From Cnuibacter physcomitrellae (GTDB lineage Bacteria > Actinomycetota > Actinomycetes > Actinomycetales > Microbacteriaceae), in NCBI RefSeq assembly GCF_014640535.1, contig NZ_BMHD01000001.1:310001-374000 (forward strand): a DNA stretch of 64,000 nt. The letters run 5' to 3'. The stretch's first letter is position 1. Each line of letters begins with the position of its first letter. A program made the translations under genes and the position numbers. Positions 39,954 through 45,796 of this stretch are shown here, in pieces. Under the pieces are notes generated by a model that saw only the letters and a program-made list of their open reading frames with translations, was not told where the DNA came from and did no database searches.

Positions 39954-40364
39954 ATGACCACTACCGAACGACCCGCCGTGCTCTTCGTCTGCGTCCACAA
40001 CGCCGGACGCTCCCAGATGGCCGCGGGCTACCTCACAGCCCTTGCCGGCGATCGAGTCGACGTGTTCTCCGCCGGAAGCGAGCCCGGCGATGAGGTCAAC
40101 CCGACCGCCGTCGCCGTCATGGCGGAGGAGGGCATCGACATCGCAGGCGCCACGCCCCGCATCCTCACCACCGACGCCGTGCGACAGGCCGACGTGGTGA
40201 TCACGATGGGATGCGGCGACGCCTGCCCGATCTTCCCGGGCAAGAGGTACGAGGACTGGGAGCTCACCGACCCCGCCGGCCAGCCCGTCGAGGTCGTCCG
40301 CGCCGTCCGCGACGACATCCGCGCGCGTGTCGAGGAGCTCATCTCGGAGATCGCGCCCCGCTAG
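39954..40364 (+). CDS. arsC: Arsenate reductase, low-molecular-weight phosphatase family
   Basis: 136 residues. Reduces arsenate to arsenite with thiol cofactors (mycothiol or thioredoxin type in actinobacteria). The P-loop is Cys13-VHNAG-Arg19 with Ser20; further conserved pieces are MAEEGIDIAG, VITMGCGDACPIFPGKRYED and DWELTDPAGQPVEVVRAVRD, matching the actinobacterial ArsC group closely. No arsR, arsenite pump or other ars gene lies nearby, so it is an isolated copy. Start ATG after GGAAAGCGACC. Its stop overlaps the end of the convergent LuxR gene by four bases. Confidence 0.9.
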   Translation: MTTTERPAVLFVCVHNAGRSQMAAGYLTALAGDRVDVFSAGSEPGDEVNPTAVAVMAEEGIDIAGATPRILTTDAVRQADVVITMGCGDACPIFPGKRYEDWELTDPAGQPVEVVRAVRDDIRARVEELISEIAPR

Positions 40365-42925
40365 GGTCGCCCGGTCGCCGGAGGTTCCCGTCGTGCGGGG
40401 GTGGCGATCCGCGGCGATGCGTCGTGCAGCGGGCCGGGCGCCGGTCTCGCGCTGTCACCGATGGCCCGGCGCAGGTCGGCACGCTGGCGGATCCCGGTCT
40501 TCCGGAAGACCCGGAGGAGGTGCGTCTCGACGGTCCTGACCGAGATGACGAGGTGGTCCGCGATCTCGCGGTTGGACAGGCCCAGGACGGCCAGCTCGGC
40601 GATCTCGAGCTCGCGGTCCGAGAGCTCGCGGGTCGCGTCGTGGCGGGTGCCGAACCATTCGCTGCCGCAGAGAGCCGTCTGCTCCGCTCCGAGCCTGCTC
40701 GCCGCGGCCGCCGCTCGCGCGTCTCCAGCTGCCGTGTGCAGCTCGGCGGCGGTCGCGTACGACTGGGCGGCGTGCCCGCGCATCCCGAGCCGGACGGCGG
40801 TGTCGGCGATGGCCTCGAACTCGGCGACGAGGCCCTCCGTCGCTCCGGTCTCACGGCGCGCGAGGGCCCGTGCCTGCCGCACCAGGAGGGCGATGCACTC
40901 GCCCTCGACGAGGCCGGCGAGCTCGTCGACCTGATCGATGACCCGTGCGGCCGCGCCCGCGCGCGCGGCCCCGCTGAGGGCGATCATCTGGAACAGCGGA
41001 TAGCCGTATCCCGCGTGGACGGCGGCGGCGTCGATGAACGACCGGGCCGCGGCCTCGGGCTCACCGGCGCTGAGCTGCATCCAGCCCTTCGCGTCGTCCA
41101 GCCAGCCGGCCACGAGAGGGCCGCCTCCTGCCTCGAGCACGGGCGCGAGGACGTCGGTCGCGGCGGCGTGGTGGCCGGCGAGGGCCAGCGCCTTGGCGAG
41201 TGACACGTGCGCGAGCAGGGCGGGTTCGGCGAATCCCTGCTGCTCGAGCGCTGCCAGGGCGCTGCGCAGCACGGGGATGGCCTCGGAGACCCGACCGGAG
41301 TGCTGAAGCCCCAGGCCGGTGCACCAGCGACAGAGCGCCTCCTGGTCCGACCGTCCGAGACTGGCGGCCTCATCGCCCAGGAATTCCAGCTCGAGGAGGG
41401 TGCGGTCGAAGGACTGGTCCCACATCCGCGTGTAGATCCGGCCCCAGCGCACTCGGAAGGTGTCGGCGCCCGCGTCGCGCAGCATCCCCTCGGCCTCGAC
41501 GAGCAGATCGACCGCGGCGCCGGTGCGTCCCTTCATCGCCATCACGGCGGCGTCGAACCCCATCCGCTCACCACGCAGGACGATCGCCTCATCGGCCCAC
41601 ACGCCCGCACCGATCGGCGGATCCGGCCGGGACAGCGCGGCCAGCTCGGCGTCGTCGGCCGGAGCGCCCTCGACGCCGTCCCGCTCCTGTGCGGCGAGGG
41701 ACGGGACGTTCCACTGGGACGTGGGATCGTCCCGCCGTGCTCGGAGCAGCCGGACCAGCTCGCGAAGGGTGCGGTCGTGTCGGGGGAGCAGCCGCGACGG
41801 ATCGAGCTCCTCGAGCCGCTTCAGGGCGACGGCGGACCGTCCCGACTGGGACTCCGCGACCGCCAGGACGAACGTGGCCTCGACGGGCGCCCCTTTCATG
41901 AGCGCCGCCGTGGCCAGATGCTCGGCGAGGCGCGTGCGAGAGGCACGCAACGCGGTCTCCGCTGCTCGGGCGAGGGTGGTCCCGTCGAGCTCCCACCCGA
42001 GAGGCAGGGCGAGCCGCGCGAGGCAGACGAGCTCGGCGTCCGTCGCGTCGCCGGGCGACCGCGTCGTCAGGTCGGCGACGATGGCATTGCTCAGCCGCCG
42101 ACGTCGAAGGCGCGCCATGCTGCGGACCAGCATCAGCTCGCTGACGGGATCATGGACCCGGGAGACCGCGCCGTCCGGGTGATCCACGATGTCGAGGAGG
42201 CCCCGTTCTGCGAGCATCTCGATCGTCGGGCGCGGGTCGATGCCGAGGATCTGCTCGAGCACGATCCGTGTGCGGTCCGTCCCGAGCTCAGGCGCCAGGG
42301 CCACCACGTCGATGACCGTCTCGACCGGATCGACGGGGTCCTCGAAGCCCATCCGGGAGAAGATGAGTCGGCGGAGGCTCTCGATCGGGGGGATGGGCGC
42401 TTCGAGCCTCCACTGTCCGTCACGGTCGACGAGGGATCCCACGGCCTGCAGGTCGTGCAGGGCCTCTCGGAGCACGACGAGATCACCCCCGTCCCGAGCC
42501 GGTATCAACGCCGGCACGATCTGGGGATCGAGCGGCCCGCCGAGGAAGCGGTGGCTCAGCCTCAGCATCGCCTCCCGTCCCCACGGAGCGAGACGGACGC
42601 GAGCGAGTCCGTTCTCGTCGACGAGGCGGCGGAGCCACCCGTCGAGCGGGGTGCTCGTCGACTCGATGACGACGGGGACGACCAGTCCCCGGGCCACGGC
42701 CTCGGCCGCGCGACGGCGGCCGGCGGCGTCCGTGGATCGATCCTGATCGTGGACCCGGATCCGACGACGCACCGGCTCGGCCAGGCCCGCGACTACCGTG
42801 CGCACGAGGTGGGACCGACCGGATCCGGGCGGGCCGGAGACCACGATCCCGCGGCCCGACTCGAGGGCCTCCCGGACCACTCGAACCGACTCGTCGCGAT
42901 CGACGTCGAGCTCGATGTCACTCAT
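40361..42925 (-). CDS. Large LuxR-type regulator with N-terminal ATPase
   Basis: 854 residues. Walker A GPPGSGRS (residues 31-38), a Walker-B region, a long helical middle with TPR-like spacing (for example DQEALCRWCTGLGLQHSGRV and LAHVSLAKALALAGHHAAAT), and a C-terminal LuxR HTH: LSDRELEIAELAVLGLSNRE, IADHLVISVRTVETHLLRVF. This is the layout of STAND/MalT-like regulators that oligomerise on ligand and nucleotide binding. It is divergent from the Tat-dependent dioxygenase-like gene 203 bases away and is a candidate controller of that cassette. Confidence 0.9.
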   Translation of the reverse strand: MSDIELDVDRDESVRVVREALESGRGIVVSGPPGSGRSHLVRTVVAGLAEPVRRRIRVHDQDRSTDAAGRRRAAEAVARGLVVPVVIESTSTPLDGWLRRLVDENGLARVRLAPWGREAMLRLSHRFLGGPLDPQIVPALIPARDGGDLVVLREALHDLQAVGSLVDRDGQWRLEAPIPPIESLRRLIFSRMGFEDPVDPVETVIDVVALAPELGTDRTRIVLEQILGIDPRPTIEMLAERGLLDIVDHPDGAVSRVHDPVSELMLVRSMARLRRRRLSNAIVADLTTRSPGDATDAELVCLARLALPLGWELDGTTLARAAETALRASRTRLAEHLATAALMKGAPVEATFVLAVAESQSGRSAVALKRLEELDPSRLLPRHDRTLRELVRLLRARRDDPTSQWNVPSLAAQERDGVEGAPADDAELAALSRPDPPIGAGVWADEAIVLRGERMGFDAAVMAMKGRTGAAVDLLVEAEGMLRDAGADTFRVRWGRIYTRMWDQSFDRTLLELEFLGDEAASLGRSDQEALCRWCTGLGLQHSGRVSEAIPVLRSALAALEQQGFAEPALLAHVSLAKALALAGHHAAATDVLAPVLEAGGGPLVAGWLDDAKGWMQLSAGEPEAAARSFIDAAAVHAGYGYPLFQMIALSGAARAGAAARVIDQVDELAGLVEGECIALLVRQARALARRETGATEGLVAEFEAIADTAVRLGMRGHAAQSYATAAELHTAAGDARAAAAASRLGAEQTALCGSEWFGTRHDATRELSDRELEIAELAVLGLSNREIADHLVISVRTVETHLLRVFRKTGIRQRADLRRAIGDSARPAPGPLHDASPRIATPARREPPATGRP

Positions 42926-43128
42926 CGTTCCGCCTGACCACCCGCACCCTCGTCAGCTCATGGGATCCACGCCAGGATACGGACTCCTCAGCCGGGGGTG
43001 GAGGACGCGGGTGTCATAGGGGATGCACAGGGCTTCATGGACTGCCCATGGACGAGTCCTAGCCGGCGCTGGGATCCGCCGGAGACAGTCGATGTCGTCA
43101 CCCCACGAAATCCGACGAAAGGTCTCCC

Positions 43129-44136
43129 ATGAAGCGCATCCCCGACCCGGAGCCGACACCCGACGGCCCCGCCTACGAGGGTCGCCTGCTCGACCACGCA
43201 GACGAGCCGGTGGTCGATCAAGGCGCCGCCTTCGACATCCGCACCCTCATCAGCCGGCGCGGCGTGCTGAGCCTCGTCGGTCTCGGGGTCGGCGCGGTGG
43301 CCCTCGCAGCGTGCACCTCCACGACCACCGGCGGATCCTCGAGCGGCAGCGGCGGATCGGCCGGGGGCACCTCGACGGGGACGGCGACTCCGTCCACGGG
43401 AGGCGGCTCGTCAACGCTCCCGGCCGGTGAGATCCCCGACGAGACGGCCGGGCCCTACCCGGGCGACGGATCGAACGGCCCCGACGTCCTGGAGCAGTCC
43501 GGCATCGTCCGCAGCGACATCCGATCCAGTCTCGACGGCGGCGCCACCGCGACAGGAGTGCCGATGACCCTCACGCTCACCCTCACCGACATGGCGAACG
43601 GCGACGCGCCCTTCGAGGGGGTCGCGGTCTACGTCTGGCACTGCGACGCCCAGGGCCGCTACTCGATGTACTCGGAGGAGATCGAGGGCGAGACCTACCT
43701 GCGCGGCGTGCAGGTGGCGGATGCGAACGGCCAGGTCTCCTTCACCTCCGTCTTCCCGGCGTGCTACTCGGGACGGTGGCCGCACATCCACTTCGAGGTG
43801 TACCCCGACGTCGGCTCGATCACCGACTCCACCAAGGCGATCGCCACCTCGCAGGTGGCCCTGCCGCAGAGCACTTGCGAGGACGTCTACGCCCTGTCGG
43901 AGTACTCCGGCTCGTCGTCGAACCTCGCGCAGGTGAGCCTCGACAGCGACAACGTCTTCGGCGACGACGGTGGCGCGCTCGAGCTCGCCACCGTCTCGGG
44001 CGACACCGGCGCCGGCTACCTCGTGTCGCTCGCGGTCCGCGTCGACACCGCCACCACCCCCACCGCAGGCGCCGCCCCCTCCGGGGGACCCGGCGGTGGC
44101 GGCACCGGTCCGGGCGGCACGCCGCCCCAGCGCTGA
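43129..44136 (+). CDS. Tat-exported intradiol dioxygenase-like lipoprotein
   Basis: 335 residues. A twin-arginine signal ([20 protein letters not shown], Arg43-Arg44) ends in a lipobox with Cys62, then a Ser/Gly/Thr linker of about 40 residues, then an intradiol-ring-cleavage fold. Candidate iron ligands are Tyr in [11 protein letters not shown], Tyr in [17 protein letters not shown] and the two His of HIH; together they give the Tyr-Tyr-His-His set. Known intradiol enzymes are mostly cytoplasmic; extracytoplasmic lipoprotein relatives are common in actinobacteria but little studied. The N-terminal 40 residues before the RR motif are unusually long. It is followed by its own tatA-tatC-tatB. 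Confidence 0.88.
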
Positions 44137-44147
44137 TCCAGCCGCTG

Positions 44148-44260
44148 CCACCTCACTCCGCCCCACCCCCACCTCACTCCGCCCCACCCCCACCTCACTC
44201 CGCCCCACCTCACCTCACCTCACCTCACCTCACCTCACCTCACCTCACCTCACCTCACCT
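44148..44260. repeat. 21-bp and CACCT tandem repeat array
   Basis: Three near-identical 21-bp units (44148-44168, 44169-44189, 44190-44210; each begins CCACCTCACTCCGCCCCACC) run straight into eleven perfect tandem copies of CACCT (44206-44260). The array fills most of the gap between the dioxygenase-like gene and tatA, starting 12 bases after the stop and ending 46 bases before the tatA ATG. On the other strand it reads AGGTG. The unit number is likely to vary by slipped-strand events (inference). Confidence 0.93.
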
Positions 44261-44306
44261 CGGGTCCGCTGCCGGATGGGCTGCGAACCCGCCTCGAAAG
44301 GACATC

Positions 44307-44597
44307 ATGGGCTTCTTCCAGAACCTCACGGGATGGCACGCGCTCATCCTCCTCGCCGTCGTGCTGCTGCTCTTCGGCGCCGCCAAGCTACCCGCCCTCG
44401 CCCGGAGCGCCGGCCAGTCCATGCGGATCTTCCGCTCCGAGATCAAGGATCCCGATGCCTCGGGGAAGCACCCGGGCGAGGCGTCCGAGGCCGAGACCGA
44501 GACCGGGGTGGTCGCCACTTCGCCGTCGGCATCCGCCCCCGCCACCCGGCAGGGGCGTGACGCGGCGGCGCTGGGCGGCGGGAGCGCATCCGCATGA
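44307..44597 (+). CDS. tatA: Accessory Sec-independent translocase subunit TatA
   Basis: 96 residues. One N-terminal membrane helix ([20 protein letters not shown]) with the hallmark [20 protein letters not shown] hinge and amphipathic helix, then an acidic, Ser/Ala-rich tail. TatA oligomers form the export path for folded proteins. GAAAGGACATC precedes the ATG. Its stop overlaps the tatC start (ATGA). In most actinobacteria tatA and tatC lie beside WYL-regulator and helicase genes and tatB lies elsewhere; here all three are together, downstream of a Tat substrate gene, which argues for an accessory system. Confidence 0.93.
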
Positions 44598-45382
44598 CCG
44601 CCGCCCCCGCGCCGGCGGAGGCCGGGGCGCCGCCGAGCGCTCCCGCCGGTCGGCGGATGCCGCTCGGATCACACCTCCGCGAGGCGCGGCGGCGCCTCCT
44701 GGTCGCGGCGATCTCGATCGCGGCCGGAGTGGTCGCGGGCTGGTTCCTCGCGGATCCGGTGCTCGACGTGCTGCGGGCTCCCATCACCGCGCTGGCCGGG
44801 ACGCGCTCGGCGAGTCTCAACTACGACAGCGTGAGCGGCGCGTTCGAGCTGAGGATGCGCGTCGCGCTCCTCACGGGCGTCGTGCTCGCGGCTCCGGTCT
44901 GGCTGCACCAGGTCTTCGCGTTCGTGATGCCCGGGCTCACCCGCCGCGAGCGCCGCTACACGCTCGGGTTCACCCTCGCCGCGCTGCCGTTGTTCCTCGC
45001 CGGATGCGCCACGGGCCTCAGCATCTTCCCGCACATGGTCGAGCTGCTGGCCGGCTTCGTCCCGAGCGAGGACACGAGCATCCTGCAGGCGTCCGACTAC
45101 GTCGACTTCGTGCTGAAGCTCGTCGTCGCGGCGGGGGTGGCCTACGTCCTCCCCGCACTCGTGGTGCTGCTGAACCTCGCCGGCGTCCTCCCGGCGGTCC
45201 GCATCCGGGCCGGATGGCGCTGGATCCTGCTCGCGATCGTGCTGTTCAGCGCGATCGCCACGCCGTCCGCCGACGTCGTGTCGATGCTGCTGCTCGCGGC
45301 ACCGATGACCCTGCTGTTCGCGGCCGCAGCGGTCGTCGCCCACCTGCACGACCGGGCGATCGTGCGCCGCCTCGCCCGCTGA
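44594..45382 (+). CDS. tatC: Accessory Sec-independent translocase subunit TatC
   Basis: 262 residues with six membrane helices. The N-terminal signal-recognition surface reads [20 protein letters not shown]; the first periplasmic loop and helix 2 follow, then the conserved cytoplasmic loop [17 protein letters not shown] (Glu that contacts the twin-arginine motif). It binds the RR signal of the cargo. The gene is in the same transcript as tatA and tatB, coupled to tatA by a four-base overlap. The N-terminus before the first helix is about 20 residues longer than in housekeeping TatC. Confidence 0.94.
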
Positions 45383-45406
45383 CCGCCCTCCCCGAAAGGA
45401 CACGCC

Positions 45407-45796
45407 GTGTTCGGACTCAGCCTCGAGAAGCTCGTCGTGCTCGCCCTCATCGCCGCCCTCGTCCTCGGCCCGCACCGTCTGCCGCACTATGCGCACCGCC
45501 TCGGCGAGCTCGTACGGTCGCTGCGCGACCTCCTCGACGTCGCCCGGGACAGCGCTCGGGCCGAGATCGGCGGCGAGCTCTCCCTCGACGAGTGGCGTCG
45601 ACTCGACCCGCGCAGGTACCATCCCCGCTCCCTCGTGCGCGAGGCCCTCGCCGACGACACCGCCCCGGCCGGAGGCACCCCCGCGGACCCGCATACGTCG
45701 CGCGAGAGTGCCACGCCCCCAGACGCGATCGCGCCGTCCGTGCCGCGCCGCCCGCGCTACGACAGCGCGGGCAGGGCCCTCCGCACGCCGCTCTGA
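45407..45796 (+). CDS. tatB: Accessory Sec-independent translocase subunit TatB
   Basis: 129 residues. Short membrane helix (LEKLVVLALIAALVLGPHRL) with the TatB-type G-P-x-R-L-P hinge, then a long amphipathic helix (HRLGELVRSLRDLLDVARDS) and a Pro-rich cytoplasmic tail. It works with TatC in substrate reception. GTG start preceded by GAAAGGACACGCC, nearly the same ribosome-binding site as tatA (GAAAGGACATC). The gene starts 24 bases after tatC. Confidence 0.92.
   Translation: MFGLSLEKLVVLALIAALVLGPHRLPHYAHRLGELVRSLRDLLDVARDSARAEIGGELSLDEWRRLDPRRYHPRSLVREALADDTAPAGGTPADPHTSRESATPPDAIAPSVPRRPRYDSAGRALRTPL

Follow-up and report, generated by a model that had tools for sequence, protein, structure and literature searches.

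A TatACB cassette of a second Tat system linked to a predicted lipoprotein dioxygenase in Cnuibacter physcomitrellae and its relatives

Placement of a twin-arginine translocation (Tat) gene set beside the gene for its own cargo is already known from Bacilli. In Bacillus subtilis, two reports describe phoD as lying upstream of tatAd-tatCd, being co-induced with this pair and needing it (PMC3068169, PMC6708511). According to the same sources, TatAc can make up active translocases in Escherichia coli with either TatCd or TatCy, though it cannot stand in for TatAd or TatAy in its own host; under high salt, TatAd assists TatAy and TatCy in exporting YwbN (PMC6708511, PMC3068169). A 2026 review notes that the PhoD-specific TatA has been reported to take part in targeting the substrate (PMC13186574). 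We analyzed a 64,000-nucleotide stretch of Cnuibacter physcomitrellae DNA (contig NZ_BMHD01000001.1, positions 310,001 to 374,000; the window), in which the gene for a predicted Tat-exported lipoprotein of the intradiol-dioxygenase family (the cargo) stands ahead of tatA, tatC and a tatB-like gene (the cassette). As in the Bacillus PhoD–TatAdCd system described in these sources, the cargo gene stands directly upstream of a second Tat set and another set lies elsewhere. The Bacillus set, however, has no TatB and serves a phosphodiesterase induced by phosphate starvation, whereas the cargo here is a lipoprotein dioxygenase, the gene order is A-C-B, and the set is frequently absent or reduced to tatA or tatA-tatB; the likeness drawn here is one of arrangement. 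We consider it likely that the cassette is an optional Tat booster coupled to the cargo, which arose once and has often been lost.

The cargo carries a twin arginine (Arg43-Arg44), a hydrophobic stretch and a lipobox cysteine (Cys62), features that make it a predicted Tat-exported lipoprotein, and a Ser/Gly/Thr-rich linker. The domain profile PF00775 matched it with 40.8 bits (cut-off 27.3) across profile positions 19–97 of 182, about half of the profile. A model of the protein, with a mean predicted local distance difference test (pLDDT) score of 74.6, was closest among solved folds to 5vg2 (Z 22.6, root-mean-square deviation 2.4, 192 residues aligned) and 4ilt (Z 17.8). Residues Tyr178, Tyr213, His219 and His221 align with 5vg2, are present in 157, 158, 158 and 158 of 158 cargo homologs, respectively, and occupy what we take to be the iron-ligand places expected of an intradiol dioxygenase (two tyrosines and two histidines). 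By domain, fold and ligand residues the cargo is thus a member of the intradiol-dioxygenase family and a predicted enzyme, and the original prediction of a Tat lipoprotein with such a fold is borne out by the sequence, the PF00775 match and the 5vg2 match. Its scores against the catechol 1,2-dioxygenase equivalogs lie far below their cut-offs (TIGR02439, 32.1 against 392; TIGR02438, 24.4 against 404.4). The nearest solved folds are those of secreted intradiol dioxygenases of the mite Tetranychus urticae (5vg2, 6bdj) and that of Streptomyces SACTE_2871 (4ilt, 4ilv), with which the cargo shares only 20–27% identity in structure alignments. The T. urticae enzymes are described as secreted and as cleaving many plant aromatics (PMC9167512), and by analogy with them our guess is that the cargo might act on plant or soil catechols. 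Two adjacent PF00775 genes occur elsewhere in the Cnuibacter genome (G000:C1:3237675-3238833; L008, L009).

The window corresponds to G000:C1:310001-374000 of a 4.35-Mb genome that encodes two TatC proteins. The other tatA-tatC pair lies about 29 kb away at G000:C1:384.8-385.8 kb (its TatC at 384.8-385.5 kb), preceded by two WYL-domain genes and followed by genes for a DEAD/DSHCT helicase and an LNT-type protein, and this WYL/helicase arrangement recurs in many other fetched loci of relatives. A further tatB-like gene at C1:864.4 kb falls under the Pfam cut-off and scores 166 bits against a TatB profile built in this analysis. Since the genome thus holds a second tatA-tatC pair and another tatB-like gene, the cassette is not the only, housekeeping system: it is an accessory, second Tat system, as had been predicted from the letters of the window, with the other tatA-tatC pair beside WYL genes and the other tatB-like gene elsewhere.

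Assignment of the cassette genes was clear for TatC (TIGR00945, 159 bits; cut-off 132.7) and closer to the threshold for TatA, which passed TIGR01411 (56.5 bits; cut-off 53.9) and fell below the stricter PRK00575.1 cut-off (67.6 of 72). The third protein passed PF02416 by a small amount (21.4 bits; cut-off 21), and its best NCBIfam matches are TatB models, all under their cut-offs (PRK01371.1-4, 71 of 96; TIGR01410, 34.1 of 56.5). Because the tatB-like gene at 864.4 kb also falls short with the same models (76 of 96, 44.5 of 56.5, and 18.3 of 21 for PF02416), these cut-offs are not decisive; three cassette TatB proteins of relatives likewise lie under the TatB-model cut-offs. We therefore call the third gene tatB-like, from its position and best match. 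The tatA and tatC frames overlap by ATGA at 44594-44597, and the conserved part of cassette TatC begins at a second ATG at 44657, so the ATGA start may be unused. The single direction of the three genes behind the lipoprotein gene, the ATGA overlap and the ribosome-binding-site-like sequence shared by the first and third genes had all been read from the sequence beforehand and are present, with the third gene now named tatB-like.

To survey relatives we used a sample of 398 genomes of the family, calling the cargo at E <= 1e-60. The cargo was found in 83 genomes, with its downstream side readable in 82 (in G530 the contig ends 500 bp downstream). Behind the cargo, 19 of these 82 genomes carry tatA-tatC-tatB, 8 carry tatA-tatB, 10 carry tatA alone and 45 carry none; the combinations AC, C, B and CB, like any other gene order, were absent from the 82. 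In the loci read, tatC never occurs without both tatA and tatB, and in all partial sets tatA is present and tatC missing. Recurrence of the same order in 19 of the 82 cargo genomes places the adjacency of cargo and cassette beyond chance. All four states occur in one genus (g12: full in G011, G092 and G601, AB in G443, A in G674 and G491, none in G628). When TatC proteins of the 398 genomes were ranked against a profile of cassette TatC, the top 18 all lay directly beside the cargo, a ranking that is not exhaustive since the divergent cassette TatC of G590 (L221) scored lower and was located through its cargo; ranks 19–21 come from a single genus where the cargo was not detected; each is the only TatC of its genome and lies outside the cassette clade. 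Outside the family, the full set is also present in Brevibacterium and Actinotalea, and an order-level search, a few of whose 60 fetched loci belong to this family, gave 6 loci with the full set and 54 without any of it. The cassette thus follows the cargo, and the cargo gene does not lie elsewhere in most cassette-bearing relatives; constant co-travel in the other direction, which the first reading had put up for checking, does not hold, with 45 of 82 cargo genomes lacking the cassette genes.

A tree of 62 TatC proteins separated 34 cassette TatC on one side of a branch with 100/99 support from 28 other TatC on the opposite side, the latter including housekeeping proteins and nine other extra TatC. 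The input to this tree excluded four small loci that represent the gene of the window itself, together with a copy of the genome's housekeeping TatC and one near-copy; it gained six rows, and N-terminal ends were trimmed. Eight genomes with an extra TatC and no cassette are represented (G016, G030, G035, G059, G077, G101, G124 and G140); 30 further genomes of this kind lie outside the tree, and a cassette-clade TatC away from the cargo may exist among them. The single clade bears on the idea that the cassette adds general Tat capacity for all Tat cargos and stands beside this one by historical accident. Such a role would fit the many cargo genes without a cassette, and also the fact that nine extra TatC of other kinds looked at in this family adjoin other genes. 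Against it, none of the 28 other TatC falls inside the cassette clade, partial sets remain directly behind the cargo, and the first eight full-set loci to be compared have the cargo in common amid differing flanks (L021 and L022 do share theirs); we regard general capacity as quite improbable.

We examined the history of the cassette with a cargo tree of 158 proteins built by a quick method, starting from 174 loci with an assigned state and leaving out 15 duplicate, partial or truncated loci and the short L147. A minimum of 16 changes in cassette presence is needed on this tree, and well-supported branches force 8 of these. For 33 full loci, 12 of 30 splits are common to the cargo tree and the TatC tree, compared with a mean of 0.16 and a maximum of 2 in 200 shufflings of the names. 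Both flanks are collinear in six of ten pairs of relatives, with the difference confined to the cassette site (L125 and L074 against L075; L073 and L061 against L078; L108 against L068; L024 against L026); between the collinear blocks lie 1624 bp in L108 and 129 bp in L068, and two Microbacterium testaceum records (L125 and L075) differ at this site, where L075 has about 840 bp of other DNA. The pattern favours one origin with the cargo followed by many losses, whole or partial, although the counts are unrooted and transfer may have contributed too.

Two or more TatC matches were found in each of the 19 full-set genomes and one in each of the 18 partial-set genomes (AB or A), counts for which at most six candidates per genome were scored, so that a very divergent second TatC could escape. 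With a single TatC match, the TatA (and TatB) of a partial set, if active, must pair with the one other TatC of the genome. TatA proteins of A and AB loci tend to cluster with the cassette TatA of close relatives, as L085 does with L066 (99/87). The orphan tatA genes that we inspected are open from start to stop and retain the conserved core, and ratios of nonsynonymous to synonymous substitution (dN/dS), which rest on 44 codons with few changes, were 0.03–0.27 in ten Pseudoclavibacter pairs (A), 0.00–0.18 in six Plantibacter pairs (AB), 0.10 in one Herbiconiux pair and 0.16 in one Microbacterium pair. The orphan genes thus mostly seem to be kept under purifying selection, and some may be fading: the A-only tatA of Herbiconiux has an altered version of the usually conserved GQS.RI segment and a dN/dS of 0.33–0.71 against full-set relatives. 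This gene, together with the frequent complete absence of Tat genes at the same site, would suit an account in which partial sets are decaying, functionless remnants and the graded states say nothing about mechanism, an account compatible with a booster role for the full set. We judge it unlikely, given the open frames with their conserved core, the low dN/dS among Pseudoclavibacter and Plantibacter species, and a surviving subset that is always A or AB instead of random.

Retention of tatA without tatC in every partial set raises a more specific reading, in which TatA and not TatC would limit export of the cargo. Over evolution the cassette would then shrink until a TatA coupled to the cargo, alone or accompanied by TatB, serves the housekeeping TatC; by co-producing pore-forming subunits with a single folded enzyme, the cell would export more of that enzyme. 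In none of the 82 genomes is the remnant a TatA-TatC pair, the combination that is sufficient in Bacillus. We put this reading forward tentatively and are more inclined to doubt than to accept it. Bacillus TatAc and E. coli TatE, TatA copies without a TatC of their own, are able to pair with another TatC (PMC6708511), as the TatA of the A-only loci would have to do if active; they are encoded at separate loci, whereas the orphan tatA here stays directly behind one cargo gene.

We next compared residues that may govern recognition, using E. coli TatC numbering. Beside the conserved N-terminal Glu, 30 of 33 cassette TatC have Ala, compared with Leu in 21 of 23 other TatC, and several further positions are shifted; Aquifex TatC (4b4a) has Leu at the cassette-Ala position. 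Glu119, corresponding to the Glu of the signal-peptide site in the first cytoplasmic loop, is invariant in 16 aligned sequences. On the cargo side, Asp30, Gly32, Asp36 and Thr39 of the n-region ahead of the twin arginine are invariant in 45 aligned cargos. Residues 16–42 (43174-43254), part of the signal peptide and thus expected to be discarded, lie around the motif D-Q-G-x-x-F-D-x-x-T-L-x-x-R-R. In cassette-linked cargos this segment is 83.7% identical compared with 69.9% for the catalytic part (946 pairs), and in unlinked cargos 62.2% compared with 63.8% (6105 pairs; too-gappy pairs omitted); at matched catalytic identity, linked pairs are higher for the n-region in most bins. Many cassette-free Microbacteriaceae nevertheless have nearly the same n-region, so that kinship confounds the comparison; we dropped the n-region as a cassette signature and do not read it as a key to this translocase alone. 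Docking of the n-region on the enzyme was likewise rejected: the first 40 residues have pLDDT block means of 73–88 in the full-length model and 80–97 when residues 1–62 are modeled alone, so their confidence does not come from the enzyme domain.

The most restrictive explanation is a strictly dedicated translocase, in which TatACB would recognize only this lipoprotein and the lipoprotein could not use the housekeeping Tat system, as for PhoD and TatAdCd. In its favour are the constant linkage between the cargo and cassette TatC (all of the 18 top-scoring TatC) and the Ala/Leu difference beside the N-terminal Glu, and PhoD export is reported to depend strictly on TatAdCd (PMC3068169). Exclusive service is hard to reconcile with a cargo that has no linked Tat gene in 45 of 82 genomes and lacks the cassette TatC in 18 more, where only A or AB remains; these genomes indicate that the cargo needs no translocase of its own. 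The n-region, moreover, is conserved in cassette-free Microbacteriaceae too. We find strict dedication improbable, and of the dedicated export system first proposed for this locus the linkage stands and the exclusiveness is not supported.

For the cargo-coupled booster that we favour, motifs and family membership suggest that the dioxygenase would fold and take up iron in the cytoplasm, cross by Tat through its Arg-Arg signal, be lipidated at Cys62 and stay on the outer face of the membrane. Linkage suggests that tatA, tatC and tatB would be made together with the cargo and add translocation capacity for it, and in partial sets the retained TatA, sometimes with TatB, would work with the one other TatC of the genome. 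Several observations weigh against the booster or its proposed history, in addition to the limits already given for the TatC counts and the dN/dS values and the looser constraint on Herbiconiux tatA. The 45 genomes with cargo and no linked Tat gene generally carry the same twin-arginine signal, and the signal peptide is nearly alike in Microbacteriaceae with and without the cassette. The cargo-tatA distance in the window is 170 bp across tandem repeats, compared with gaps of 3–101 bp in 23 other loci measured, which makes co-transcription of cargo and tatA uncertain. The TatA (71 columns) and TatB trees are too short to establish one clade (approximately unbiased (AU) test, p 0.148 and 0.372), 18 of 30 splits are not common to the cargo and TatC trees, four of ten pairs of relatives have no flank match on both sides (two of these four involve short stretches), and the unrooted change count leaves gain versus loss unsettled.

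Coordinates of the features in the window are collected in the following table.

Table 1. Features of the cargo–cassette locus, in positions of the window (RBS, ribosome-binding site)
Feature	Position	Strand	Basis
Divergent LuxR-type gene	40361-42925	-	sequence
GAAAGG, RBS-like, 5' of cargo gene	43117..43122	+	sequence
Cargo gene, 335 aa, intradiol-dioxygenase-family predicted Tat lipoprotein	43129..44136	+	PF00775 above cut-off, fold matches
Long cargo n-region, residues 1-42, ahead of twin Arg	43129..43254	+	unusual conservation from residue 16
Twin arginine Arg43-Arg44 of cargo	43255..43260	+	both Arg in 156 of 158 homologs, gap in 2
Cargo lipobox Cys62	43312..43314	+	kept in 157 of 158 homologs, gap in 1
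Tandem repeats in cargo-tatA gap (21 bp x 3.4; CACCT x 14.2)	44148..44261	+	gaps of 3–101 bp at the 23 other loci measured
GAAAGGACA, RBS-like, tatA	44296..44304	+	sequence
tatA, 96 aa	44307..44597	+	TIGR01411 and PF02416 above cut-off
tatC, 262 aa counted from ATGA overlap, conserved part from 44657	44594..45382	+	TIGR00945 and PF00902 above cut-off
GAAAGGACA, RBS-like, tatB-like gene	45394..45402	+	sequence
tatB-like gene, 129 aa, GTG start	45407..45796	+	PF02416 just above cut-off; position; best NCBIfam matches are TatB models

Within the 170-bp gap between cargo and tatA no RNA structure was detected (z 0.33), and a sigma-70 promoter and terminator scan found none, about as expected and of little weight here. 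A change in repeat length in this gap could shift tatA expression. On the other side of the cargo, the divergent gene that had been described as a large ATPase-LuxR regulator is present as a LuxR-type gene, and we do not count it in the unit: it clustered with no gene of the 41 other loci compared (L003, L016-L055) and was not seen beside the cargo in those relatives, and we rejected it as a conserved regulator. A low-molecular-weight phosphatase-like gene lies near the cassette in the window (39978-40364, PF01451) and in L018 (11477-12731), L021 (9445-9840) and L022 (7820-8221).

Other extra tat sets were seen in the family. In L050 (5725-9320, G016), two Ferritin_2 (PF13668) genes with Tat-like signals precede a set of tatA, tatC and tatB-like genes whose order matches that of the cassette and whose TatC belongs to a different lineage, which makes this locus an independent parallel of a cargo-linked Tat set. 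In L045 (5880-8144, G077) and L047 (6326-8570, G140), an extra tatA-tatC is followed by a gene of the L050 ferritin-like cluster, a possible cargo-linked pair. Further extra tat sets occur in L038, L040, L043, L049 and L052, with no adjacent Tat cargo recognized by eye; in L043 a twin-arginine-type start lies about 4 kb away on the other strand.

A 2013 article already counted two tatC loci for Microbacterium testaceum (PMC3827258, Table 2); the word 'dioxygenase' is absent from its main text. One of these loci is probably the cassette described here, which is present in the StLB037 records L125 and L074. In a literature search that covered few subscription journals, we found no link of an accessory Tat set to a dioxygenase. 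Within that literature, the new elements are an actinobacterial A-C-B set tied to a lipoprotein dioxygenase, a single TatC clade and ordered states. Cases of a Tat set beside its own cargo are few, and these loci extend them to actinobacteria. They also provide a natural series around one cargo, from TatACB through TatAB and TatA to none, with all four states in one genus. The series opens two questions to testing: whether the supply of TatA is limiting for Tat export, and which of TatA and TatC confers preference for a cargo.

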